A stretch of 64,000 nucleotides of DNA, taken from Branchiostoma floridae (Eukaryota; Chordata; Leptocardii; Amphioxiformes; Branchiostomatidae). Made by a program: the position numbers and the translations under genes. Shown here in pieces: positions 29,281 to 63,655 of the stretch (the first letter of the stretch is position 1; every line of letters starts with the position of its first letter). Under the pieces are notes generated by a model, which worked only from the letters and a program-made list of their open reading frames with translations, searched no databases and had not been told where the DNA came from. The stretch covers positions 15,524,963 to 15,588,962 of the forward strand of contig NC_049983.1 in assembly GCF_000003815.2 (NCBI RefSeq). The letters run 5' to 3'.

Positions 29281-32200
29281 TTAGACTTTTTGCAAATTAC
29301 TTATTTTACTTCTAAAAGTTTTCAAAAGACCTGAAAGAATTCTTTCACGGAGATAAATGGCATGGTTCTGTATCATATGCAGTACCAATGCACCCCGCAT
29401 ATGGAGCTTCTGAAATGCCCTAAATTCCTCCGGCATGTTATGAGTCCTATTGGCAGTATGGCTGATCATCTCCTTGGTGTCGTAGTAGTGGTGCCGCAGC
29501 GCCCTGCCTCGTGTGTCCTCGCTGAACGGATAGAAGCCGTACATGTGGATCTGGTCGCAGATGGTGGCAGCCAGGGTGTACATGTGAGCACCCGTGGACG
29601 GTCGGAGCGCAACGATCTTATACCCAGCCTCTGTCCAAATTCTGTAACATACATTGTATACATTATGTATATATATCTTACGTTCGTGAAGTTAAAAAAA
29701 ACATCCATCCAAGTATATATTCTCGAGTTATCATGTTGGCACACAAACCCAACAAATAGGCGCACCCCGAAAGCTCCGGAAAACATAGCCCTCCATTTTT
29801 CATGTGAAACTTACTTGTTCATGAGTTTGTTGATTCCCGCCGGTGGAAAAGCAGTCTTGATGGACAGGTTGTGTTGGAGAATAATCTCTATGATCACCCT
29901 CGCGTACTTATCTCCAAAGGCGGACGTTAAAACAGGTACATACAGGATCTGGTCGCCAACTTGTTTCAGACGTCCTAACAACCGATCGTAATCTGTGTGT
30001 GTTTTGTTGTTCCACTGTCCGAAGTTATTCTTGACCACGGATGGGTTCATTGTGGTTAGATTCACCTTGGAGCCGACATCTTTCTCATAACCTTCGATTT
30101 GAGGCAGGTTACACCGAATGACGAAGTCCATGGAGTCGATTTCTTGACCACAGCTGCTGTTCAACACAATCCCAGAGTTGCCCACGACTGCACACGTGTT
30201 GAAATGGCGGTCCTTCAGAGGTGATTCTTCTGGGATTAAGTTAAAGAAGTCGTCGGTGACCTTGAATGACTTCGACTTCTTAGGACGATATGCAGATCCA
30301 TATTTTAGACCTTGTCCAATCCGGACGCCGGATTTCTTTAGAGTCATATGTTTGTCAGGGTTGTAAAACTTGAGTATATGTTGTCTGGAAGTAGAAAATA
30401 TTCTATTCAGCCAGTTTCACGAGGTAAGACAAGCAGAAACACGTGATGAAAAAGAATGCATGTTACGAATAGGTCATTTCATCAGGAATACTGCATAGTA
30501 AAATAGAAATAGACAATTACCCCATGTGTTTAACATATAGTTACGATGTAAGCATGTGCATTATTTGTCTAAAGTTTTGTTTGAAGTTGTCACGGACTGG
30601 GAATGATGGTGGTGGCATGGGTGGCAAATGGGTCGCCCCTGACATACTCCGATGCTGTGTCCATGGGAAATGCACTTTACGCCAATCACCTCACTTTACT
30701 GAGTGAAAATAAGTACCTAGCTTTGGCTTTTTCACGGAGGCTTCTAACTTCTTACTAGCTGAGATAAAGGACAATGTACCGCTTACCTCATCTTCTGCAC
30801 CTCTGTACTGTTGAAACAGCAATGCTGTTCGGAGTCATTTACTGTCGCATTTGTTTCATTAAAAGTTCCGGTTTTCGGTGGGGATAGGGCGTTTGTACTC
30901 TCTGTTGGTGGCGTAGTAAGTCGAGCTAGTGATAGTTGTGCTGTACTGTTTTTGACAGTGGTCTGATTGATGGAATCAGCGATGACGCTTTCTGTGGTAC
31001 TAGCTATAGTTGGCCGTTTTGTGGTTGTTGGCGTAACAAGTCCAGGTACCGGCAATAGTTGTGCTGTACTGTTTTGGACAGTGGTCTGGTTGGTTGTATC
31101 AGCGTTGACGCCGCTTCCTATGGTACTCGGCCGTTTTGAGGTGGTTTGCGTAGTAATTCCAGGTACCGATAGTTGTGCTGTACTGTTTTGGACAGTGGTC
31201 TGGTTGGTTGAATCAGCGTTGACGCCGCTTCCTATGGTACTCGGCCGTTTCGGAGGTGGTTTGCGTAGTAATTCCAGGTACCGATAGTTGTGCTGTACTG
31301 TTTTGGACAGTGGTCTGGTTGGTTGTATCAGCGTTGACGCCGCTTCCTATGGTACTCGGCCGTTTCGGAGGTGGTTTGCGTAGTAATTCCAGGTACCGAT
31401 AGTTGTGCTGTACTGTTTTGGACAGTGGTCTGGTTGGTTGTATCAGCGTTGACGCCGCTTCCTATGGTACTCGGCCGTCTTGACGTTGTTTGCGTAGTAC
31501 TGAGTCCAGGTACCGACAGTTGAGCTGTACTGTTTTGGACAGTAGTCTGATTGATGGAATCAGCGATGACGCTTCTTATGGTACTAGCTATAGTTGGTCG
31601 TCTTGAGGTTGTTGGCGTAGCAAGTCCAGGTAACGATAGTTGTGCTGTACTGTTTTGGACAGTGGTCCGGTTGGTTGAATCAGCTATGACGCTTCCTATG
31701 GTACTCGTCCGTCCTGGGGTTGTTTGCGTAGCACTGAGTCCAGGTACCGATAGTTGTGCTGTACTGTTTTGGACAGTGGTCTGATCGGTGGCCTCAGGTT
31801 TGACGCTTCTTATTGCACTCGGCCGTCCTGAGGTTGTTGCCACGTTATCTTTGGTCAGTATAATTTTTGCTGTCTGCTTTTCGACACTGCAAGCAAGATA
31901 AGAGGTGATAGAAATGTATGCGTTAGACCGTTTTATATGATAATTTTTATGTATTTTGTTACACAGGCAGTTTAAGGCCTGTGACACCTGTATATTCTCA
32001 GTCGAGCAGTTATATGGCCATAACTTTTGATGTAACCATCTGTTTTCAACAATTTTTGGCTAGTTAACGTAATTCACCCATATTCAAAATATGATGACAA
32101 GAAAATTGTGGATCCTCACTGTTTTGGGTTTAAAAACCCATTTTTTGGTAAAAAATAGGGATGCTATTTAAATGGGTCTGTGCCCACTATGAAATGATTG

Positions 32201-34552: not shown

Positions 34553-36150
34553 TCAATAGCAAGGTTCTGTATGCAGTACCAATGCACCCCGCATGTGGAG
34601 CTTCTGAAATGCCCTAAATTCCTCTGGCATGTTATGAGTCCTATTGGCAGTATGGCTGATCATCTCCTTGGTGTCGTAGTAGTGGTGCCGCAGTGCCCTG
34701 CCTCGTGTGTCCTCGCTGAACGGATAGAAGCCGTACATGTGGATCTGGTCGCAGATGGTGACAGCCAGGGTGTACATGTGAGCTCCCGTGGACGGACGGA
34801 GCGCAACGATCTTATACCCAGCCTCTGTCCAAATTCTGTAACATACATTGTATATAATTATATATATATATTCTACGTTCATGAAGGTTAGACATCAACA
34901 CAATCCATCCAAGTATTCTCGAGTTATCATTTTTGCACACAAAGCCAACAAACATTCGCACCCCGAAAGCTCCAGAAAACATTGCCCTCCACTTTTAATG
35001 TGAAACTTACTTGTTCATGAGTTTGTTGATTCCCGCTGGGGGAAAAGCAGTCTTCATGGACAGATTGTGTTGGAGAATAATCTGAATGATGACCCTCGCG
35101 TACTTCTCTCCAAAGGCGGACGTTAAAACAGGTACATACAGGATCTGGTCGCCAACCTGTTTCAGACGTTCTAACAACCGATCGTAATCTGTGTGTGTTT
35201 TGTTGTTCCACTGTCCGAAGTTATTCTTGACCACCGATGGGTTCATTGTAGTCAGGTTCGCCTTGGAGCCGACATCTTTCTCGTAACCTTCGATCTGAGG
35301 CAGGTTACACCGAATGACGAAGTCCATGGAGTCAATTTCTTGACCACAGGAACTGTTCAACACAATCCCAGAGTTGCCCACGACTGCGCATGTGTTGAAA
35401 TGGCGGCCCTTCAGCGGTGATTCTTCTGGGATTAAGTTAAAGAAGTCGTCGGTGACCTTGAATGACTTCGACTTCTTGGGACGATATGCAGATCCATATT
35501 TTAGACCTTGTCCAATCCGGACGCCGGATTTCTTTAGCGTCATATGTTTGTCGGGGTTGTAAAACTTGAGTATATGTTGTCTGGAAGTAGAAAATATTCT
35601 ATTCAGCCAGTTTCGCGAGGTAAGGCAAGCAGAAACACGTGATGAAAAAGAATGCATGTTACGAATAAGTCATTTAATCAGGAATACTGCATAGTAAAAT
35701 AGAAATAGACAATTACCCCGAGTGTTTAACATATAGTTACGATGGTAACACTATCGTCTGTATCTGTAACTTTGTGGCCGGTATAACACATCTTTTGTGT
35801 TTTATTTAGATATATATTGTCAAGGTGAAAAGGTTGTCCGAGCCTTTGGTCTATTGTCAATGTTTAACCTTGCCACCTTATACTGAAGAGTGTAAGCCAT
35901 TTTTGAAAGAAAAACAAAACGATACATTTTGGTTCAGAAGCAAATGGCCACAACGTCTCTGAGTTCATACAAACATGTAAGATGATTGCAACACTGACAT
36001 AGTGACGTACCTGTTTGTAGACTTCCTCGGGTGAAATCGTAGTTCTGAAATCATGGACCGTTGGAGCCTACTTAGGTATAACGTAACCAAGGTCAATGTA
36101 AAAAGGAGCGCTAGTCCTGTCCTGAATATTCTCGGCTTGTTACACGTCAT
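34553..36150 (-). CDS. ST8Sia-like alpha-2,8-sialyltransferase gene B (no stem exon)
   Basis: Exons (minus): TM 36150-36011, motif L 35580-35011, motif S 34835-34553. They total 993 bp, a 330-residue protein that is fully open. The TM exon ends AAC AG|gtacgt and the L exon begins A CAA CAT, so direct joining gives ..NRQHILKFYNP in frame. Only 430 bp separate the two exons, and no stem exon with the NSTEVQNM ending lies between them. Motif L, motif S, HHYYD, HNMPEEF and the TEPC C-terminus are all present. Length is near that of vertebrate ST8Sia enzymes (about 350-380, from memory). B is closest to A and C in sequence. Confidence 0.9.
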
Positions 36151-36989: not shown

Positions 36990-39900
36990 TCAATGGCATG
37001 GTTCTGTATGCAGTACCAATGCACCCCGCTTGTGGAGCTTCTGAAATGCCCTAAATTCCTCTGGCATGTTGTGAGTCCTATTGGCAGTATGGCTGATCAT
37101 CTGCTTGGTGTCGTAGTAGTGGTGCCGCAGTGCCCTGCCTCGTGTGTCCTCGCTGAACGGATAGAAGCCGTACATGTGGATCTGGTCGCAGATGGTGGCA
37201 GCCAGGGTGTACATGTGAGCACCTGTGGACGGTCGGAGCGCAACGATCTTATACCCAGCCTCTGTCCAAATTCTGTAGAATTACATTGTATACATTAATT
37301 ATACATATATATCCTACGTTCATGAAGATTAGACATCAACACAACCCATCCAAGTATTCTCGAGTTATCAAGTTTGCACACAAACCAACAAACAGGCGCA
37401 CCCCGAAAACCTAGTCCCGAAAACATAGCCCTCCAGTTTTCATGTGAAACTTACTTGTTCATGAGTTTGTTGATTCCCGCTGGGGGAAAAGCAGTCTCCA
37501 TGGACAGATTGTGTTGGAGAATAATCTGAATGATGACCCTCGCATACTTCTCTCCAAAGGCGGACGTTAAAACAGGTACATACAGGATCTGGTCGCCAAC
37601 CTGTTTCAGACGTTCTAACAACCGATCGTAATCTGTGTGTGTTTTGTTGTTCCACTGTCCGAAGTTATTCTTGACCACCGATGGGTTCATTGTAGTCAGG
37701 TTCGCCTTGGAGCCGACATCTTTCTCGTAACCTTCGATCTGAGGCAGGTTACACCGAATGACGAAGTCCATGGAGTCGATTTCTTGCCCACAGGAACTGT
37801 TCAACACAATCCCAGAGTTGCCCACGACTGCGCATGTGTTGAAATGGCGGCCCTTCAGAGGTGATTCTTCTGGGATTAACTTAAAGAAGACTTCGGTGAC
37901 CTTGAATGACTTCGACTTCTTGGGGCGGAAGGCAGATCCATATTTCAGACCTTGTCCAATCCGTACGCTGGTTTTCGTTAGTGTCATGTTTTTTTCGGGG
38001 TTGTAAAACTTGAGTATATGTTGTCTGGAAGTAGAAATGATTCTGTTTAGCCACTTTCACGACTCAAGACAATGAGAAAGACGTGACGAAGAAGTATATT
38101 CATGTTTAGATTTTATGTACAGTACTTAGAATATTGCTAATATTTTTGAATTTTTCTATCCATGTCAGTTCCATTTGTATTGTCTTCGTCTCCGTCAGCC
38201 GGGTTACCCCTTTTGTTATAGCCACAAGCTACGCATGTAGTTAGGCAGCCCAAGTTGTGAGTACTGAACAGCCAAACCAATAAATGAATGAATGTATAAA
38301 TGTATGATTCTCTTGTTACAACATGGTCTAGGTTATATTTTATATATTGCCCAATCCTCAGACTTGCTCGCGTCAGAGTCAGGCTTGTTTCCGGGTTGTA
38401 AAACTTGAGTATATGTTGTCTGGAAGTAAATACGAGTCAGCCAGTTCGATGAGATGAGACAAGGTGAAAGTTAACAGCAACATGCTTGTGATAAGAAAAG
38501 TATGTTCACGACAATGTTCAAAACACAAGATATCATAACCGCTAATTTCGCTGCAGTACGAAGTGAAGCCACTAGGGGGCCCGAAATCTAATCATTTCCA
38601 GTGTTCGTCACACCAGGGACGTTATATATGTGATATAACGTCCTTGATCCATTCATGTCCATCCAGTCGTTCTTAAGTTTTCTAGCTAACAGACACAAAG
38701 ACAGACAAATGCTACTGAAAATATATCATACATGAATATTTAATGAATGTAATAATGTCACTGTGCAGGGCTCGAAATACTGGGTGCATGTGCACCCAGG
38801 TGCACCCAAAATTGGACCTGTGCACCCAAATATTTTCTTGGGTTTATGTATGTAACGATATCAAAGTACACTAGTATACATCATATTCTTAACATCTCAG
38901 TGTTAGAAAGATAATAAAAATGTCTTTCATGGTACTTGTTTAAGAATTTGATAGCATGTAACTAAGTTTTGAAATTAGGTTTTTCTGAAATTCTACTTAA
39001 ATTTAAGTGGTACACCCAAAAATGTTTTGGTGCACCCAATTTTTTAAGCTGGGTGCACCAGTGCACCTAATAATCCCAAAAATGAATTTCGAGCCCTGCT
39101 GTGCTTACCTCATATTCTGCACCTCGGTACTATTGAAACACCAACGCTGCTTGCCGGATCCATTCGGCCAAGCACAACTCTCCTTTGTTCCTGTTTCATT
39201 CAAAGTGGATGTCTCCGTTGGGGCTGGGATCCCTTCACTCTCATTCTTTGACACAGAAATCTCAGGTCGCAGCAGCTGTGCTGTATTGGCTTGCATAGAA
39301 GTCTGCTTTGTGGAATAGTATCCTATGGTACTGGGCCGCGTTGCAGGTGCTGCCACGAATACCTTGATGAGATTTTTTGCTGTCTGCTTTTCGACACTGT
39401 AAAAGAACGGGTGGCTAATGATGCTGATAAGAATGGTACAGTTCTCTCACTATGGTCTACAACTCTTGATTATATTGCTTTTTTGGAGGGCAGGAGGGAT
39501 ACTTGTTTAATTCATTGTCAAGGCACTGAGTCTCGTGGTTTGGTTTGTTTCCTCTCTCATCTCTGATCACAATGAATATACAATGTATACGCTTTCCCCA
39601 TAATTGCTAAGACACACAAGACAGCCGATATCTTGGTACACCAACGCGTACGGCTACCCTTAGAGCATCGTCACCGGAACGGACTGCGCCTGCGCGACCC
39701 CTGGGGGTTTGNNNNNNNNNNNNNNNNNNNNNNNNNNNNNNNNNNNNNNNNNNNNNNNNNNNNNNNNNNNNNNNNNNNNNNNNNNNNNNNNNNNNNNNNN
39801 NNNNNNNNNNNNNNNNNNNNNNNNNNNNNNNNNNNNNNNNNNNNNNNNNNNNNNNNNNNNNNNNNNNNNNNNNNNNNNNNNNNNNNNNNNNNNNNNNNNN

Positions 39901-42820: not shown

Positions 42821-45800
42821 TCAATGACATGGTTCTGTATGCAGTACCAATGCACCCCGCATGTGGAGCTGCTGAAGTGCCCTAAATTCTTCCGGCATGT
42901 TGTGGGTCCTGTTGTCGATCATCTTCTTGGTGTCGTAGTAGTGGTAGCTGAGCGCCCTGCCTCGTGTGTCCTCGCTGAACGGATAGAAGCCGTACATGTG
43001 GATCTGGTCGCAGATGGTGGAAGCCAGGGTGTACATGTGAGCCCCCGTGGACGGACGGAGGACCTCAGACCCAAACTTTGTCCAGATTCTGTAATGCATT
43101 GAGTTAGATATTCATCATGCACTTTATCATCATGATTTCGATTCAATTACTGAACAAAAACAAAAAAGGTCACTGAAGAAAAAGGTAAACTATTATACAT
43201 CCCATTTTTCCAATTAGAATAGTTGAAGTGGTATCTCTACTTGAAAGGAAAACTTACGATTTGATGAGAGTGTTGATTCCGGTCGGTGGAAAGACAGTTT
43301 TGATCGGCAGGTTGTGCTGGTTAACAACCTCTATGATCACTCTCAAGTACCTTTCCACATGAGGGGCCGTTAAAGCGGGCACGTACAAGATCTGGTCGCC
43401 AACTTCTTCCAGACGTCGTAACAACCGATCATAATCGTCTTTTGTTTTCTTGTACCATTGTCCGAAGTTATTCCTGACCACGGAGGGGTTCATTGTAGTC
43501 AAGTTTGCCTTTGAGCCGACATCTTTCTCATAACCTTCGATTGGAGGCAGGTTACACCGAATGACGAAGTCCATGGAGTCGATTTCTTGACCACAGCTAC
43601 TGTTTAGTAGAATACCTGAGTTGCCCACGATTGCACACGTTTTAAAATGGCGGTCTTTCAGAGGCGATTCTTTTGGGATCAACTTCAAGAACTCTTTGCT
43701 GACTTTGAATGTCGACTTGGTACCAAATTCAAATGTCAAGCGTTGCCCAATCCGTAGACTTGATCGCGTTAGTGTCAGGCTTGATTCCGGGCTGTAAAAC
43801 TTGAGTATATGTTGTCTGGAAGTAAAAACGAGTCAGCTAGTTCGATGAGTTCTAATCATTTCCAGTGTTCGTCATACCCTACCAACACACCAAATATGTA
43901 ACCAATCCATTTATATCCATCCAGTCGTTCTTGAGTTACCTAGCTAACAGACACAAAGACAGACAAATGCTACTGAAAATATATCATACATTGATATTTC
44001 ATGGGGGTAATGTAGTGCTTACCTCATATTCTGCACCTCGGTACTATTGAAACACCAACGCTGCTTGTCGGATCCATTCGGCCAAGCAAAACTCTCCTTT
44101 GTTCCTGTTTCATTCAAAGTGGATGTCTCCGTTTGGGCTGGGATCCCTTCACTCTCATTCTTTGACACAGAAATCTCAGGTCGCAGCAGCTGTGCTGTAT
44201 TGGCTTGCATAGAAGTCTGCTTTGTGGAATAGTCCTTGACGCTTCGTGTGGTATTAGGCCGCAATGCAGGTGCTGCCACGAATACCTTGATGAGATTTTT
44301 TGCTGCCTGCTTTTCGACACTGTAGAACGGGTGGCTAATGTTGATAAGAAAGGTAGTTCTCTTGCTATCACATGGTCTAGATTATATTGCTTTTATTTTT
44401 TTTTGGGGGGGGGGGGCTACTTTTATAATTCATTGTCAAGGTACATAAAGGACTACTAACCCGGGAGATATTTTTGCAGTTGTACATGTAAATCGCATTC
44501 AGCGTAGCAGGAAGTAATCAAAACCTTATTTTTATGATAATATAAACACGGCATTGAACAAGACGCGTGTGTAACTCTAGATTCTTCACATATAGACGTG
44601 CGACTTGAAGTATAGAATAATGTAGTGCTTACCTCATAGTCTGCACCTCGGTACTGTTGAAACACCAACGCTGTTCGGAGTCAATTCCTGCTGTATTTAT
44701 TTCATCCAAAGTGCCTGTCTCAGACTTGGCAGCTTTTCTACGCTTCACTACTCGCTTAATGATTTTGCTAACTTTCCTTCTCTCCTTCGGTGGGGTTGGA
44801 GCTCGCTTACTCTCCGTTGTTGTCATAGTAACTCCAGGTGCCGATAGTTGTGCTGCACCGCTTTGCAAACAAGTCTGATTGGTGGAATAGGCTCTGACGC
44901 TCCCTGGGGTATCGGGTCGTTTTGAAGTTACTGCCACGAATTCATTGATGAGATTTTTTGCTGCCTGCTTTTCGACTCTGTAAGATTTATTCCAATTATC
45001 CGTTGAAAAAAAGTATAATTCTCTTGTTATCACATGGTCTAGATTATATTTCATTTAGTTTGGGGAGAAATACTTGCAAATTGCATTATCGTATTTTTTA
45101 CTATCAAGGTGACAATGTTGGCCTAAAGTGCCCTGGTTCCAATTCCACGGTAACGAGGCCTTGGGAAAGGCACGGAACACATACTCAGTTGATGATAAGT
45201 AGGTAGGGGCGCCCTCTCGGACCAGACGTTATGTCGGAGGTCCATTGTTTGAGGGGAGCCACACCTCGAGCACGTTAAAGAAGCTTGACATAATTATGTT
45301 ATTAAGCTTCAATGTAATTGTCACTAGGTGAGTTTTTGTCAAGCTGATTGACCGACCTGGTGTGCTACGTATCTGTGACTACTATTTATGGTAGTTCAAA
45401 ACTTCAACAACGCATAAGGCAAGAAATCGATCGAGTAGGCGCTATATTGATCGAGCGAAAAACAAACGACTGAGTCACTCAAATGTAAACACAACTCATG
45501 AAAGTTCAATGTTCACTGTTTCACATTGTCACCTCACATTAAAGAGAGACTAAAACCTATTTCGTTAAAAGAAATTAGCGGTTTGGTTCAGAAACAAATG
45601 GACGGCACCGTAAGATACTGTAATACCCACCGTAATGTCGTGTCATGGGAGTCACTGGCAAACTTTTTCAGGTGAAATCGTAGTTCTGCAAACATGGACT
45701 GCTGGCGCCAATTCACGTACAACATGAGTAAATTCAACACAAATAGAAGCACCATTCCTGCTCTGAACATTCTTGGTGCATTCCAGCTCTTCTTTGAAGG

Positions 45801-47000: not shown

Positions 47001-50000
47001 TCATTGGCATGGTTCTGTGTGCAGTACCAATGCACCCCGCATATGGAGCTGCTGAAATGCCCTGAATTCTTCCGGCATGTTATGAGTCCTGTTGCTGATC
47101 ATCTCCTTGGTGTCGTAGTAATGGTAGCCCAGCGCCCTGCCACGTGTGTCCTCGCTGAACGGATAGAAGCCGTACATGTGGATCTGGTCGCAGATGGTGG
47201 CAGCCAGGGTGTACATGTGAGCTCCCGTGGACGGACGGAGGGTCTCAAAACCAGCGTTTGACCAAATGCTGTAAAAAGATATTTTGTTTACATGCTAATT
47301 ATGTAGCTCGATTTGGATTACAAAATCAAGACAACAGTGCAATTTCCAAACAAGCAAAATACCCTGATATTCTTATTTAGATAGGACTGAGGTGATGTCT
47401 TGTTTATTTGCTTGTTTGTTTGAATCGCACAGCAAAAATATTACATAAAACAAACACAATGAAGAAAAACAAGTACAGGAGGAGGGGAAAGCATAATCTC
47501 AAAGCAGACTCCCGGTGACATATAAGATACAATTTAGCATCAAAGCAGGCCAAGGTGTAAGGAGGTCAGCCTCTGGTCGGCTATACTCCTTGGCCGGCTT
47601 TGATACTTAATTGTATCTTATATGTCACCGGGAATCTGCTTGGAGATTAATGAAAGCGTGCGTGGCTTGTACTCAGCCCTCTCCATTGAGCTAAAGAAAT
47701 TTAATTATGTAGATAGCAAAGTATTTGTATCTGTATCTATATAGCCAGTATAACCGCCCTTCGGCGTAACACACCAGCTTCGCAGGCACACGGCGCGGCA
47801 GCAGCTGGTTATATTACACTGAACGATCCGTCACACCTAACTTTTGCACATCTATCTGCAAGCTTTCTTTAAAACTATCCAGACAAGATGCTCCTACTGT
47901 GCTTGGTGATAACAAGTTCCATTTTAAAGTAATATACCAACTTACGATTTCATGAGAGTGTTCATTCCCGCCGGTGGAAAGGTAATCTTGGCCGCCAGTT
48001 TGTGCTGCAGAACGATCTGTGTGATGATCCTCACGTGCATCTCTCCTGACGGTGACGTCAAACCCGGCACGTACAAGATCTGGTCGCCGACTTGTTTCAG
48101 ACGCCGCGACAACCGACGGTAGTCCTTCCCGAAGTCGTGCGGGATCACGGAGGGGTTCATGGTGGTCAGGTTCGCCTTGGAGCCGACATCTTTCTCATAA
48201 CCTTGTTAAAATTGTAAATATGTAAAAATTGTGCATATAGACGTGTAGAATTATAAGGCTCATAAAGACTTTAAACGATGTAAATTGTATCTCTGTTACT
48301 AAGTATATGCTTTGTCTGACCCTTACTTCTTCCCTCATGACCTCATGACATCTCTCTCATAACCTTGTTAAAATTGTAAATGTGTAAAAATTATGTATAT
48401 AGACGTGTAGACTTATAAGACTCATCAAGACTTTAAACGATGTAAATTGTATCTCTGTCACTAAGTATATGCTTTGTCTGACCCTTGCGTGCTTCTTCCC
48501 TCATGACCTCATTGAAAAGCGGCTTGCAGGCCGATTTGAGCTTTCATGAATAAACAAGGGTTCAAACAAACAAACAAACAAACAAACAAACCTTCGATTT
48601 GAGGCAGGTTACACCGAATGACGAAGTCCATGGAGTCGATTTCTTGCCCACAGGAACTGTTCAGTAGAATCCCAGAGTTGCCCACGATTGCACATGTGTT
48701 GAAATGGCGGTCCTTCAGAGGTGATTCTTCTGGGAGGAGCTTCAGTAAATCTTTGGTGGCCGTGACCTTCTTAGATAATTGAATTTCATATGTCAAACGT
48801 TGCCCAATCCTTACACTGGACTGCGTTAGAGTCAGGTTTGTTTCCGGGTTGTAAAACTTGAGTATATGTTGTCTGGAAGTAAAACGATTATATTTAGCCA
48901 TCTCCAAGAGTAAAACTAAAAGCAACAGCAAGACGTTGTATCGGGAAAACTGTAACTTTTACCAAACTTCGAGTGAAATTCGTTCAATCTGAGATATCAC
49001 GTGTATATAGTTGAATAAAAACTTTGCTTCTGTGTTTAATCGGTTTTCTTCTCTATCTTAAGTTGTCCGGCTCTGACATGGTTCGTGCCATCACAAGCCA
49101 TGCAATGTCTCGCACTGAGGCAGTTCTATCAAAGTGATGATTACTGAACAACTAGCAATCCTTTGAGATATAAAATACGGTAGCACTTACCTCATATTCT
49201 GCACCTCTGTACTGTTAAAACACCAACGCTGCTCCGATCCATCTCGCCTGGAGCAACTCCGCTTTGTCCTTGCTTCATTCGTACCTGCACCTGGCGTTGC
49301 AGTTTTCTTGCGCTTCAATACTCTTACTTTCGGCTTCGGTGACACCTTTTTAGTTTCCTTCTTGGAACCAGTAATCCCATGTCCTAATAGTTCTGCTGTG
49401 TTCTTTTGTACAGAAGCTTTATTCGTGCCATCGGCTTCGGTACTTCCCATGGTTGTTGTTGACATGAAATCTTTGATGAGGCTTTCGGCTGTCTGCATCT
49501 CGACGCTGTCAAATGATGATGGTTAAAAATGTGTAAATTGTTATCCAAATGACGAATTATGTTCGTTTGCTGGTAAGATACGGTGGGATATTTATTGATA
49601 AGTGTCTATTCTCCATCGTGCCTGTATTCATTCCCAACCCAAGACACGCGATACTTTGATAACAACGGCTCCCTTTCAGAGGGCCTCATGGATAAACAAG
49701 TGCTGATCTGGCGACAATAAGGATCCGGATACTGTATCATGAAACGGAGTAAGATCGCCTTACAACAAGGGACCGGTTGTAGTGCAGGTGGCCATATATT
49801 CTTATGCATCTCTTTCTCAGTTTTTTTAATCTCTTGAAGATGTTTTCTATCCTCATGGTAGTCCTTCGGTTGATTCCCCTGACCGCTATATCTTAACGCA
49901 ATATTTTATGTCCACTCAAAATGAAATAAAGTGAACAAATAAAACCAAACGATTTTTGAACCAGCCTCACATCAACGACAAATTACGAGCTATTTCGTCG

Positions 50001-50286
50001 AAAGAAAGAAACGATAAATCTTCCTGAAGTAGAAAGGGAAGACAATGTTACACAAAATTACGATAATAACCACATACCCTTGAGATGTCTGACGGAAGTC
50101 ACTTGTTGCCATCTTCCTGTGAACTCGTGCTTCTGCATACGTGGACCGCTGGTGCCAACTTATACACAGCATACCCAGGGTCCATACAGATAGATTTACC
50201 ATCCCTGCCATGAATATTCTTGGTATGTTACACCTCTTTAAGCACATGAAGAAATGTCCCCTAAACACAGACCACTGTTCAGTCAT
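47001..50286 (-). CDS. ST8Sia-like alpha-2,8-sialyltransferase gene E (L exon split by an insertion)
   Basis: Exons (minus): TM 50286-50078 (alternative conserved start 50247, MCLKRCN), stem 49505-49191, L-5' part 48872-48592, L-3' part 48201-47946, motif S 47268-47001. With the 48591-48202 insertion removed the total is 1329 bp, 442 residues, fully open. Without removal, translation stops soon after RCNLPQIEG. Neither half of the L exon has other lesions, which suggests the product is still under selection. Relative to paralogs the protein has lost about nine residues after NPSV. The stem exon is Lys-rich near its middle (KPKVRVLKRKK). Confidence 0.87.
47494..47649. mobile_element. Foldback MITE with TAATCTCMAAGCAGA ends
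   Basis: Arms of about 65 bp: TAATCTCAAAGCAGACTCCC then GGTGACATATAAGATACAA on the left; the right arm is its complement, ending GGAGATTA. Weak flanking similarity (GAAAGC on both sides). It lies in the intron between the L and S exons of gene E. Confidence 0.75.
48202..48591 (-). other. Retroelement insertion acting as a candidate new intron in gene E
   Basis: A 390-bp insert interrupts the codon for Gly in PQIEGYEK. On the minus strand it begins GTTTGTTTG and ends TTTTAACAAG, so it has GT-AG borders, and AAGGTT occurs at both edges as the target duplication. On the plus strand it is a retroelement 3' tail: GAAAAGCGGCTTGCAGGCCG, ATGAATAAA and an (AAAC)n end, the same tail as at 63581-63650. 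The body is partly duplicated in tandem (offset 162 bp) together with about 20 bp of exon (GACATCTCTCTCATAACC). Splicing is predicted, not shown. Confidence 0.75.
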
Positions 50287-51062: not shown

Positions 51063-54000
51063 TCAATGACATGGTTCTATATGCAGTACCAATGCACCCC
51101 GCACGTGGAGCTGCTGAAATGCCCTAAATTCCTCTGGCATGTTGTGGGTCTTTTTGCCTATCATCTTCTTCGTGTCATAGTAGTGGTAGCTGAGCGCCCT
51201 GCCTCGCTTGTCCTCGCTGAACGGATAGAAGCCGTACATGTGGACCTGGTCGCAGATGGTGGCAGCCAGGGTGTACATGTGCGCTCCCGTGGACGGACGA
51301 AGCGCTAGCATCTTAAACCCAGCCTTTGTCCAAATTCTGTAACATACATTTACTTTGTATTTTGTATATCGTATTTAGTCTAGTAGTGGGTGCCGGTACA
51401 GAAAAATCAGCTACAGGTCCGGTTTAGGTCCAGAGGATCATTTTCCAATCGGTCAAAATCCGGATGCGGATCTTGAACCCTGCTGTTTGCCCAAATTCTG
51501 TAACAATATAATGATACTTACTTCAGATACTCATCAAGCATAATGGTTTTGATTCAAATTAATGAACCAAGACAACAGTACAATCAAACCTGCAATATTT
51601 GTTACAATGGGAAGATAAGACCTATCCTTATTTTGCAATTGCTTTTTCTTTCTTTTCTTCTGTGAAATATGAAAAGGGAAACTCACGATTTTATGAGACT
51701 GTTCATTTTAATTCTTGCCGGTGGAAAAGTAGCCCTTATCGGCAGTTTGTGTTCCAGAAGAATCTGTGTGATCACCCTCACGTTCTTCTCCTCCCTCGGA
51801 GTTGTGAAAGCGGGCACGTACAAGATCTGGTCGCCAATCTGTTTAAGACGTCGTAACAAACGATCATAATCATCCGTTGTTTTGTTGTGCCATTGTCCAA
51901 AGTTACGTTTGACGATGGATGGATTCATTGTAGTCAGGTTCGCCTTGGAGCCGACATCTTTCTCATAACCTTCGATTTGAGGCAGGTTACACCGAATGAC
52001 GAAGTCCATGGAGTCGATTTCTTGACCACAGCTACTGTTTAGTAGAATACCGGAGTTGCCCACGACTGCGCAGGTGTTGAAATGGCGGTCCTTCAGAGGT
52101 GATTCCTTTGGGATGAGTTTCAAGAAGTCTTCGGTGACGTTGAAAGATTTACCACCGAATTCATATTCCAAACGTTGCCCAATCCGTAGGCTCGACTGCG
52201 TTAGACTCAGGTTTGTTTCGGGGTTGTAAAACTTGAGTATGCGTTCTCTGAAAGTAGAAAAAACTCAAGATGAAGAGTGAAGACAAATAGCAAGACGGAA
52301 GTTTGTGATGAGAAAACTATGTTGACTACTGATGATTTGTATCAACGTCGCTCAATAAAAGTTTATATGCTTATAATCATATTAGAATGACAGAAACTTT
52401 TGTGTTTATTACATGTGGGATAAGAACGCTTGTCATTTTTTTCCTTTTTGAAGTTGCCCGTGGCTAGCAAGACAGGCTTTCCATGCAGTGTACCGAATAT
52501 TGCTACATAGATTTATTTCACGTCGTGAGTTAGTCTGGGTGTCACCTAATTAGTTTTATCTGGCACCCATACTCGCTAGTCAAAAGGCTTTCTATCTTCC
52601 CGCTTTTTTTTAGGAAAGTATAATCGTAATCGGGTTGACATTGTTCCTATTTCGGAATACCTTGTGATTTGTTGAGAACTTCAGATATAGAATAATGTAG
52701 TGTTTACCTCATATTCTGCACCTCGGTACTGTTGAAACACATTTTACTCTCGTTCTGTGGCGCAGTAAACCCAGCTCCTGATAGTTCTGCTGTATTATTT
52801 TGCACAGAGGTCTGACTTGTGGAATCGGCATTGAGGAATGCTGTGCTACAGGTCCGTCTTGAACTTGCTGCCAATAAATCTTTGAAGAGATTTCTTGCTG
52901 TCTGCTTTTTGACCCTGAAAGAGAATGGCTAGATTAATGATGGTAAAATGTCCTCGTATAATCCCCTCGTTATCACATTGTCTACGCTATATTTGATCTT
53001 GATTGGGAAAGACTAAAGCATTACAGGAGTTGAGTGAACCCTTCCCCTTTGACTGATACATTATGCATATTTTGTAATAAATGAAAAATGAAGCATGTTT
53101 ATTATAGACGTAGATAAAGTGCAGCAATGCATGATATACTCAAGATGTCTAGCTATAGCTTAATGCATTATATCCAATGGTGGATGTCATTTAGATGTCA
53201 TTGCCATTGTCATTCGAAGTTTTCTAAAAATATTATTGTTATCTGGTTTGTTACAGCCGAATAGTGGCAATACTAGCTGACCTATTCAGATTCCGACAGA
53301 TTTGTGAATGCCTTTTCACGTACCGCCATTGAACTATGCTATAGTTCTAACAACAAAGCCTGCCATGAAAACTGAGGAGGTGTTATTCTCCACATTAACT
53401 CCACTATGTGCATTCAGTCTCAAGACAAACTGTGTTTTGATAACCTGCAGTAACCTTTCAGAATATGTCAGGTAGAAAAATACTCCCGCGCCCAACACAT
53501 TACGATAAGCACCCACAGTAAGGAACCGTTGGCACTGAAGGGTGAGCTCAAGAATCAACAAGGAAACGGTTGTGGTGCTGGTGGCCATATTTACATACAT
53601 AACGTTACATACATACATACATGCATTGTGATTTTCAGTCATCATCGTTTTCTATCCTTGTGCAACGTTGCAAGTGCAAGATTGATTCCGCTAGCCATTA
53701 CGTGGTATCACTTAATTATGTTTATTCCAGACACTTTCATATGAAAGAAAAAAAATGACCGACATTTCGTCAACATTTCAGCTAGCTGACGTTCGAGATA
53801 GATTGCAAGTCAGTTCTTGGAAGGAGAGAAGCGATACATGTTCTGCAAAAGAAAGTGAAGACCATGTGCCACGTAAATGAATTGATGTCATGCACACATC
53901 AACGGTAACAGCTACAAGGGGCCTTCAAAAAGTAATGCGACTTGTTTTATAACAGAGTCATTCATCGATTGAGTTGAAATTTGGCACAAAGGTACAAGAA

Positions 54001-56490: not shown

Positions 56491-59400
56491 TCAACGACAT
56501 GGTTCTGTATGCAGTACCAATGCACCCCGCATGTGGAGCTGCCGAAGTGTCCTAAATTCCTCTGGCATGCTGTGAGTCTTATTGCCGATCATCTCAGTAT
56601 TCGTGTCGTAATAGTGGTACCGCAGCGCCCTGCCTCGTGTGTCCTCGCTGAACGGATAGAAGCCGTACATGTGGATCTGGTCGCAGATGGTGGCAGCCAG
56701 GGTGTACATGTGAGCTCCCGTGGACGGACGGAGCGCGAGAATCTTAAACCCAGCCTTTCTCCAAATTCTGTAAAATATTTAGTCCAGATACTCATCATGA
56801 TACTCATTTTTAACCACGTTCATAATAATTCCGATATAAAAAAAAAAGAAAAAAAAAGACACAAGTACAATAAGAAAAACAGCAGAAGATTTTACAATGG
56901 AAATTAAATAGTGTTGCACTACTTAGCACCATTTTGCAATTTCATCATACAACGTTTTACGTATCAACACTCGACTGGGTCTTTTGAAGACCGCCGGAAC
57001 AGTGATGATATCTGTAGTTTTTTTCTCTGTGAATAAGATACTGAATCGACAAATTGACAGGCAAACTCACGATTTCACAACAGTGTTAATCCTCGCCGGT
57101 GGAAAAGGAGTCTTCATCGTTAGTTTGTGCTGAAGAAGGATCTGTATGATTGCGCTTACCCACTGATCTCCGACCGAAGACGTTAATGTGGGTATGTACA
57201 AGATCTGGTCGCCAACTTGATCCAGACGGCGTAACAAGCGATCATAATCATCCGTCGTTTTGTTGTCCCATTGGCCGAAGTGTTGCCCGATCACAGATGG
57301 GTTCATTGTGGTCAAGTTTGCCTTGGAGCCGACATCTTTCTCATAACCTTCGATTTGAGGCAGGTTACACCGAATGACGAAGTCCATAGAGTCGATTTCT
57401 TGACCACAGCTACTGTTCAGTAGGATACCAGAGTTGCCTACGACTGCGCAGGTGTAAAAGTGGCGATCCTTCAGAGGTGATTCTTCTGGAATTAACTTCA
57501 AGAAATCTTTGGTAACGTTAAGTGAAGTCTTATTACCCCATTTCATTTCATATCTCAACTGTTGCCCAACCCGTAGTCCGGACTTCCTTAGCGTCAGGTC
57601 CCTATCCGGGTTGTAAAACTTGAGGATGTGTTTTCTGGAAGTAAAAACGAGTCGAGTCAGCCAGTTTCAGGAGTGTGGTGAAAAAAAACTGTTTATATTT
57701 ACTAATCACGAAGGTTTTTTGGACCTCGTATGGTCAGACTTGCAGGAGTGTCAGGGAGAGTGACAGGAATCAACTTGACATGTATTCTAGGCCATCAGCA
57801 AGGAGCAATTGTCTCGCGATACGTTAGAGTTTATCTAATAAGTAGTATCTCTTTTGAGTGCTTACCTCATGTTTTTAACCTCGGCACTGTTAAAACGTTT
57901 TTTACTACCGTTCTGTGGCGCAATTATAGTTCCTGATAGTTTGTTGTTCTGCACAGAAGTCTGATTGGTAGAATCGGCTTTTTCGCTCCCGGACCATCTT
58001 GAAGTTGCTACCAAGAATTCTTTGATGAATATTTTTGCTGTGTTCTTGTCGAAACTGTAAGAAAATGTGTGATCAACACATTTAATGATGGTACAAAAAT
58101 ACATAATTCCCTCCTTTTCACATGGTCTACATTACGTTTCAGTTTGGTGGGGGAATTTAATCATAGTTATTAATTATTAATTCATTCGGCTTACATTACA
58201 GGCAGCCAAGGTCGTATTTACCTGTGAGTATAATGTACCCTCCCCCTCGTATATATTGTCATCCAAAAGTTATCAAAAATGGAGTAGCATGCCATACCTT
58301 GTAAAAAGCCTACTATATAAGTTTCACATAGTTTGGGTCAAACATACACTGTTGATAAATGTAATGTCATCATCGTAATAATATACCATGGAAAACTCTA
58401 TAAATTCATGTTTTACCAACGCGTCTTAAAACGAGAGAACTCTCTCTCTATAAAACATATATATCGGTTTTATATATATATGTATAAATATATGAACAGA
58501 TGAATTATATATATAAATATATATATATATAGGGAGAGAGATTTACATGCTTCTTCTCTCGTTTTCAGACGTGTTTGTAGAACAGGAATGTATATATAGA
58601 GAGAGATCTCAAAGTAGAATTTTCTTATCATTCTCTAGATATCTAACCCAATGCCTTAAGCCCCGATTGCGCCAAACAAATATGATTGTCATTGTCCTCT
58701 TAACCTCTTAAGTTTTTATGAAGCTGATTAACATCTGGTTTGTTACAGTCAAATATTTAATGGCGGTTACACTAGTAGACTAGAGTTCCTCGAACACACA
58801 TATTCGCCAAATAAACATTTTTTATCGAAGGTCGTTGTTTCTCAATGATTAATGTATGTAATTATGGCTATAATGGGCCAGCTAAGCACCAAATACAGCT
58901 TAATACGAGATGTTAATATAGCAAAGCTGGATGTAAGGTCTTTAGTTAGGCTAGGTTAGGCTAGGTCTTTAGTTTTATATAAGATTTCACTCTACAAAAT
59001 GTACATTGCAGTCTTTTCGTAAAAAAAGAAATAATGAACAAACTTTGAGTGACTGGCCTATGTATTAGATAATAGGTCATCTAAGGGTTATCTAAGGGTC
59101 ATACGTAAGGATTGTTACGGCCCTGCCTTGGTGAATGTTTGTGTCCATCTCATGAAAATAGTAAGTAAAGTTTTGCAATCGCGAGTTAAGTCAGAGGTAT
59201 TTTACACAGTCTACCTGGCTGGCTATCACGCCAGGCTACTCAGATCCCCCCATCCATAGCCCCGCAAAGACAAAATAGCTGATTGACAGGCATAGTAATT
59301 GCTCCAACCCTACCAGTGACCCCAGGTCGGCCTGTCTGCTGGCTGGCTGACCCTCTGGGAGGGTTTCATTGCAGGAACACCAGCACCAGTACTGTGTGTT

Positions 59401-63580: not shown

Positions 63581-63655
63581 ATGACCTCAATGAAAAGCGG
63601 CCTGCAGGTCGATTTGAGCTTCTCATGAATAAAGGAAGGATTAAACAAACAATTC
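63581..63655 (+). repeat. Retroelement (LINE-like) 3' tail
   Basis: ATGACCTCAATGAAAAGCGG, then CCTGCAGGTCGATTTGAGC and ATGAATAAAGGAAGGATTAA and ACAAAC. This is nearly the same as the tail of the insertion in gene E (48505-48575), which makes the two members of one family. Confidence 0.65.

Follow-up and report, generated by a model that had tools for sequence, protein, structure and literature searches.

The proto-splice-site idea of intron gain raises a question at the sialyltransferase gene called gene E here, namely whether a 390 bp insert in one of its exons has become an intron through a duplicated AGGT, and whether the same has happened elsewhere in the genome. The window, meaning the whole stretch of 64,000 nt that was analysed (Branchiostoma floridae, NC_049983.1, 15,524,963-15,588,962), carries GT29 sialyltransferase genes in a tandem array on its minus strand. 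Coordinates are window positions unless a C label precedes them. The coding exons of gene E and the corresponding sites in its paralogs are listed below with the evidence for each in brackets.

50078..50286, minus strand: gene E coding exon 1 (442-codon join)
49191..49505, minus strand: gene E coding exon 2 (442-codon join)
48592..48872, minus strand: gene E coding exon 3, sialyltransferase motif region as far as the insertion (442-codon join and domain match)
47946..48201, minus strand: gene E coding exon 4 (442-codon join and domain match)
47001..47268, minus strand: gene E coding exon 5, including the stop codon (442-codon join)
57340..57357, minus strand: uninterrupted paralog site (CAAATCGAAGGTTATGAG search)
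51962..51979, minus strand: uninterrupted paralog site (CAAATCGAAGGTTATGAG search)
43527..43544, minus strand: uninterrupted paralog site, 1 mismatch (CAAATCGAAGGTTATGAG search)
37724..37741, minus strand: uninterrupted paralog site, 2 mismatches (CAAATCGAAGGTTATGAG search)
35280..35297, minus strand: uninterrupted paralog site, 2 mismatches (CAAATCGAAGGTTATGAG search)
30084..30101, minus strand: uninterrupted paralog site (CAAATCGAAGGTTATGAG search)

The sequence CAAATCGAAGGTTATGAG runs unbroken through all six paralog sites (6/6), as the initial annotation had claimed, although the sites are not all identical to the letter since three match exactly, one has one mismatch and two have two. Gene E lacks this sequence and has 390 bp in its place at 48202-48591, directly after CGAAG, beginning with GTTTGT and ending with AACAAG just as had been described. 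The six paralogs thus provide the empty sites for gene E, and the tandem array acts as an internal control. No insertion-free second allele of gene E was found among the 12 genome matches to exon 3, all of which were gene E itself, paralog exons or fragments.

Joining 48592 to 48201 at the AG|GT edges restores the paralog sequence and keeps a 442-codon frame open across five exons, which bears out the frame first proposed for this gene. A public B. floridae protein of 442 residues matches the joined product from end to end at 100% identity, so that a public gene model already splices at this junction; the protein is itself a predicted model. The GT29 domain PF00777 crosses the junction (Pfam match to the joined product, E=1.3e-28), and database relatives are named poly-alpha-2,8-sialyltransferase-like. 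The dN/dS values of gene E against the six paralogs, which also cover time preceding the insertion, are 0.24-0.37 for exons 3 and 4 and 0.19-0.33 downstream of the insert, and they resemble the values between paralog pairs. A protein from a B. floridae x B. japonicum assembly (P0002) aligns to the gene E protein at 89% identity, has a 7-residue gap in common with it and is identical in the last exon; it is probably the B. japonicum orthologue. The seven residues that are missing from gene E exon 4 (47946-48201) and from P0002 include an NKT-like glycosylation motif and are present in the aligned window paralogs.

The insert itself was found to contain the following features.

48202..48591, minus strand: candidate new intron of gene E, GTTTGT...AACAAG, 390 bp, an antisense retroelement insert (paralogs, open join, public protein, edges)
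48205..48591, plus strand: 3' end of a LINE-like element, 5'-truncated, with an (AAAC)n end and an internal tandem duplication (genome copies)
48589..48594, minus strand: AAGGTT on the donor side, one copy of the target duplication, overlapping in part with the tail (edge repeat search)
48199..48204, minus strand: AAGGTT on the acceptor side, target duplication copy (edge repeat search)
48185..48346, no strand: copy of the tandem duplication that holds the real exon edge, with ~17 bp of exon (self-comparison)
48347..48512, no strand: second copy of the tandem duplication, in which AAG|GTTATGAG at 48364|48363 resembles a further acceptor (self-comparison)

The AAGGTT noted earlier at both edges is the longest direct repeat across them (6 bp), and the AA on its tail side (TT in the sense direction) may derive from (AAAC)n, which leaves fewer than 6 bp as certain target duplication. 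The element lies antisense in gene E with its tail reading GTTTGTTTG at the donor, and a different genome copy covers 84% of the intron. If the insert were retained, the frame would stop ~27 codons beyond the junction, in line with the premature stop predicted by the initial annotation. That part of the insert is tandemly duplicated together with some exon also held, with an exon share of ~17 bp and not ~20 bp; the two copies show 9 differences over 162 aligned positions and one 4-base gap. The second acceptor copy that was expected near 48364 lies at 48364|48363, and its use would add GYERDVMRS before a stop that ends the frame early. The donor of gene E matches 6 of 9 consensus positions, pyrimidines occupy 12 of the 20 bases preceding the acceptor, and the predicted strength of both sites is modest.

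The insert was identified as the antisense tail of a dispersed retroelement, as had been proposed, by a genome search which gave 42 matches (the best 40 of 1745 candidates scored). An exact 3'-end pattern had 173 matches on one strand and 513 overlapping matches on the other, from which we estimate ~350 copies. The copies terminate in ..TTTCATGAATAAACAAAGGTTC(AAAC)n and their 5' truncation points vary. A simple-repeat 3' tail combined with variable 5' truncation is a LINE feature, and in this the element agrees with a non-LTR retroelement of LINE-like type. In some of the longer copies an open frame lies upstream and ends ..WNSLPPDIRTAPTLASFKRLLK; a 144-residue piece of this frame had no Pfam match, so that the class of the element stays putative, and the frame was dropped as a means of assigning it. 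A further copy of the 3' end was seen in the window at 63599-63619 on the plus strand, as a 21-letter stretch with 2 mismatches.

Introns built of the same element in the same orientation as in gene E, with AG|GT at both edges, were found in PCYT2, MCAT and a gamma-glutamyltransferase-like (GGT-like) gene, and a FAM47-like intron is probably also made of the element.

C8 (L067): PCYT2 intron, 252 bp, duplication AAGGT, 252/252 bp covered by the element
C7 (L127): same intron in a PCYT2 paralog, 247 bp
C2 (L120): same intron in a PCYT2 paralog, followed by an assembly gap
MCAT intron: 424 bp, duplication CAGGT, 56% covered by the element
GGT-like intron: 422 bp, duplication ACAGGTT, 43% covered by the element
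FAM47-like intron, probable: 484 bp, duplication AGGT, 38% covered by the element

In the MCAT and GGT-like introns the element occupies both edges with other sequence between them, and the FAM47-like intron is the weaker case because its right-edge resemblance is limited to a short stretch. Target-site duplications with AG|GT were measured at 4-7 bp in the five introns of gene E, PCYT2, MCAT, GGT-like and FAM47-like genes; they are short, and splicing in any case requires AG and GT. The five introns share element sequence pairwise, the FAM47-like one most weakly. Introner families are defined by at least four similar introns (PMC9860276), a number which these five lancelet introns, each in a different gene, reach.

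All four additional joins keep an open frame and continue a recognisable protein. The PCYT2 join aligns without a gap over the junction to ethanolamine-phosphate cytidylyltransferase (PDB 3elb) and the MCAT join does so to the mitochondrial malonyl-CoA-acyl carrier protein transacylase (PDB 8csp), and both joined products continue into Branchiostoma relatives. The GGT-like join matches PF01019 over the junction (71 residues aligned to 68 profile positions), and PF14642 is likewise matched over the junction by the FAM47-like join. The best evidence of use among the introns comes from PCYT2. When exon parts flanking the intron on either side were compared between the C8 and C7 copies, 22 of the differing codons were synonymous and 4 nonsynonymous, whereas the intron is 92.2% identical. 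The protein has remained constrained on both flanks of the intron since the duplication. The PCYT2-like genes on C8, C7 and C2 share the element-derived intron, and the upstream coding part on C8 is a single unusually long exon.

The exon that follows the intron starts with GT in 5/5 whole-element introns against 0/7 others, a comparison that omitted L121, L135 and L138 (next exon starting GT, class left open; with them the others become 3/10) and in which the whole-element introns had been picked out while both of their edges, the right one included, could be seen, so that we take it as support and not as an independent test. L066 would be a further whole-element intron, with a following exon that starts with GA, provided that its short last exon is genuine; this locus was kept unclassified, as were L135 and L138.

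What the initial annotation described as a single case thus appears to be a recurrent process in the genome. Its proposal of intron gain through a duplicated AGGT proto-splice site gains support from the same configuration in at least three unrelated genes. We consider it very probable that one retroelement family has given rise to introner-like introns repeatedly in this chordate, in gene E and in at least three further genes, by way of a duplicated AGGT.

Other copies of the element lie on donors of existing introns. At four loci (L061, L063, L071 and L124) the element sits exactly at an exon end and the intron runs on past it into other sequence, to an ordinary acceptor. The far edge of the element reads AG|GTAGGT in L063 (duplication AGGTA) and AG|GTACAA in L124 (duplication AGGT), a pattern that would suit duplication of the AG|GT of a donor already present; the two edges of L061 have no more than GT in common. 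The far-edge AG|GT in L063 and L124 are candidate recursive splice sites that would make a two-step splicing possible. Nested or recursive splice sites, as in stwintrons, offer a parallel to L063 and L124, where an AG|GT at the far edge of the element beside the old donor may permit nested removal, though at these two loci one longer intron would be the simplest outcome. On C12 (2489707-2490701; L128 and L136), a short exon (..LQIVQDVIGAASHLQ) was observed to be tandemly repeated with the element at AG|GT after two repeats.

Several of the best genome copies have AG|GT directly at the tail, beside GC-rich open frames. Whole-genome patterns for a tail at AG|GT gave 14 junctions (first pattern), 32 places (relaxed pattern) and 20 places (third pattern). 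Five of the 32 relaxed places were left out, the tail being not directly at AGGT or the element a different one, and nine of the 20 rows of the third pattern were fetched, of which L141 was then dropped as its tail does not abut AGGT. The resulting set contains 35 junctions with the tail directly abutting AG|GT (14 from the first pattern, 13 from the relaxed and 8 from the third). Backwards control patterns had no matches for the first, 3'-end and third patterns and one for the relaxed pattern. As controls we used position-chosen copies, namely 40 of the 50 counted among the 3'-end matches listed, after exclusion of L061 (an AG|GT exon case), of L031, L046 and L049 (copies already retrieved) and of six others; L091 has an N at the tail, which leaves 39 readable controls.

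Judged by eye, 19 of the 35 junctions coincide with the end of a coding-looking exon, compared with 1 of the 39 readable controls; with duplicates merged the count is 16/31, and it is 10/31 if a downstream exon or a family match is required. The AG|GT condition in itself favours donors, and for this reason an automatic proxy (GC >=0.49 and an open frame of >=40 codons) was also run. It accepted 20 of the 35 junctions against 59/474 AGGT sites in the control loci and 43/516 in the window, counting L069, L073 and L132, which were not counted by eye, and missing L068 and L136, which were. The exon-end excess is therefore present by eye and by proxy. Of 9 exon cases 5 were seen to be truncated near a pyrimidine-rich stretch of the element (reference 250-275), as were 3 of 40 controls (p=0.003); this is a hint only, as the bin was chosen post hoc and L062 was placed in it by eye, the computed truncation points giving 4/9. 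One control copy, L086 (C1:7729934-7731376), has its tail right after an open coding-looking frame at CTC|TTTG instead of AG|GT, and here the element may supply a new protein end.

Most copies of the element are not introns. The copies are not concentrated in genes as introns, with five element-built introns among the ~350 estimated copies, and 38 of the 39 readable controls lie away from exon ends, so we word the claim as an element that works like an introner. A general preference of the element for AG|GT was rejected as AG|GT stands at the tail in none of the 39 readable controls.

The exon-end excess can come from selection or from insertion bias. On the one hand, insertions in exons survive only where they are spliced out, and selection can thus yield the excess. 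On the other, the excess could mainly reflect targeting of sense-strand AG|GT in transcribed genes, within exons and at existing donors alike. The proxy counts would agree with such targeting, as would the four existing donors that were struck in addition to exon interiors and the AGGTA and AGGT duplications in L063 and L124. We nevertheless regard it as somewhat unlikely to be the main cause, for the control tails speak against AG|GT as a general target, and the share at exon ends is inflated by selection, which keeps the letters of working splice junctions while neutral ones decay. It is very improbable that the element merely replaced or invaded introns that were already there, in which case nothing was gained; this is true of L061, L063, L071 and L124, whereas the six paralogs of gene E have no intron at the site, the element spans the intron from edge to edge in gene E and PCYT2, and it holds both edges in MCAT and the GGT-like gene around other sequence.

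Gene E might instead be dying, its exon disrupted and the insert mostly left unspliced or spliced to the duplicated acceptor, with the restored frame a by-product of the target duplication. Its weak donor and acceptor and the nearly identical second acceptor upstream that leads to a stop would suit this explanation. It is improbable given that all five exons are open, that dN/dS downstream of the insert is as low as in paralog pairs, that the 442-residue model stands in public databases and that the probable orthologue has an identical last exon. For gene E we prefer the recent gain of a spliceosomal intron from the element; the sequence anatomy, the restored frame, the recurrence and the identical public model are observed, and splicing in vivo is inferred.

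According to the sequence of events that we favour, a LINE-like retroelement would have inserted recently and antisense into an exon of gene E at AAG|GTT. The nicked coding strand ending in ..AAGGT(T) may have primed reverse transcription on the (AAAC)n of the element RNA, a step that we infer. The duplicated target would then leave AAG| next to the acceptor and AAG|GTT next to the donor, where the antisense tail prolongs the start of the intron to GTTTGT; because of this pair of edges splicing would remove the entire insert and restore the protein. A subsequent tandem duplication would have lengthened the intron from ~228 to 390 bp. The same family would have made the introns of PCYT2, MCAT and the GGT-like gene, and probably that of the FAM47-like gene, in a like manner, with other copies landing on existing donors.

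Gozashti et al. (2022, PMC9860276) describe introners, transposable elements that create introns in exons and for which at least one of the two splice sites, or both, comes from the target duplication. According to their survey, introners occur in many eukaryotes, those with recognisable signatures are mostly DNA-transposon-like, and only two groups, both animal, are given for animals and land plants together. The lancelet element would be similar in making introns in exons and drawing splice sites from the target duplication. It differs from the introners with signatures in that survey in being LINE-like, antisense and 5'-truncated, in its cephalochordate host and in the small number of cases; the family would stand beside the mostly DNA-transposon-like introners as their equivalent among retroelements. 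The words Branchiostoma and amphioxus are absent from the main text of the survey, and a 2026 paper on tunicate splicing mentions introner transposons with weak splice sites (PMC13326754).

Retroelements have been described as a source of introns in PMC2394776, which cites a single SINE-derived intron in rice catalase A and four Alu-derived introns in human, all of the latter in 3' UTRs. These are comparable to the lancelet cases as retroelements that entered an exon and became a new intron, whereas the lancelet insertions are repeated cases of a LINE-like 3' end, lie in the coding exons of several genes and are bordered by AG|GT duplications. The model of intron gain by AGGT duplication, which the same paper names, likewise has both new edges as AG|GT from a duplicated AGGT, but in the lancelet the duplication is the target-site duplication of a retroelement that is still recognisable. 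No report of lancelet intron gain by a retroelement was found among titles and abstract beginnings in the open-licence literature.

The birth of an intron is seldom caught with every piece recognisable, and few cases come from animals. Here one retroelement family accounts for several cases in a single genome, and these cases, together with the empty-site control of the paralog array and the PCYT2 intron that lies between exons under purifying selection, make the duplicated-AGGT model testable in an animal. As a more general and tentative reading, which we hold to be possible without favouring it, this LINE-like chordate family would be a retrotransposon introner that inserts antisense at sense-strand AG|GT by target-primed reverse transcription, with the tail and AGGT making the donor and the truncated 5' end and AGGT the acceptor. 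New introns would then arise in exons and recursive sites at existing donors, and insertion itself, beyond mere survival, would be biased to such sites in transcribed genes.

The window also contains a transposable element of another kind. An uninterrupted frame of 2033 residues on the minus strand at 5040-11141 matches Helitron_like_N, DUF6570 and PIF1 helicase and, at its N-terminus, Herpes_teg_N; it is apparently an intact Helitron protein.
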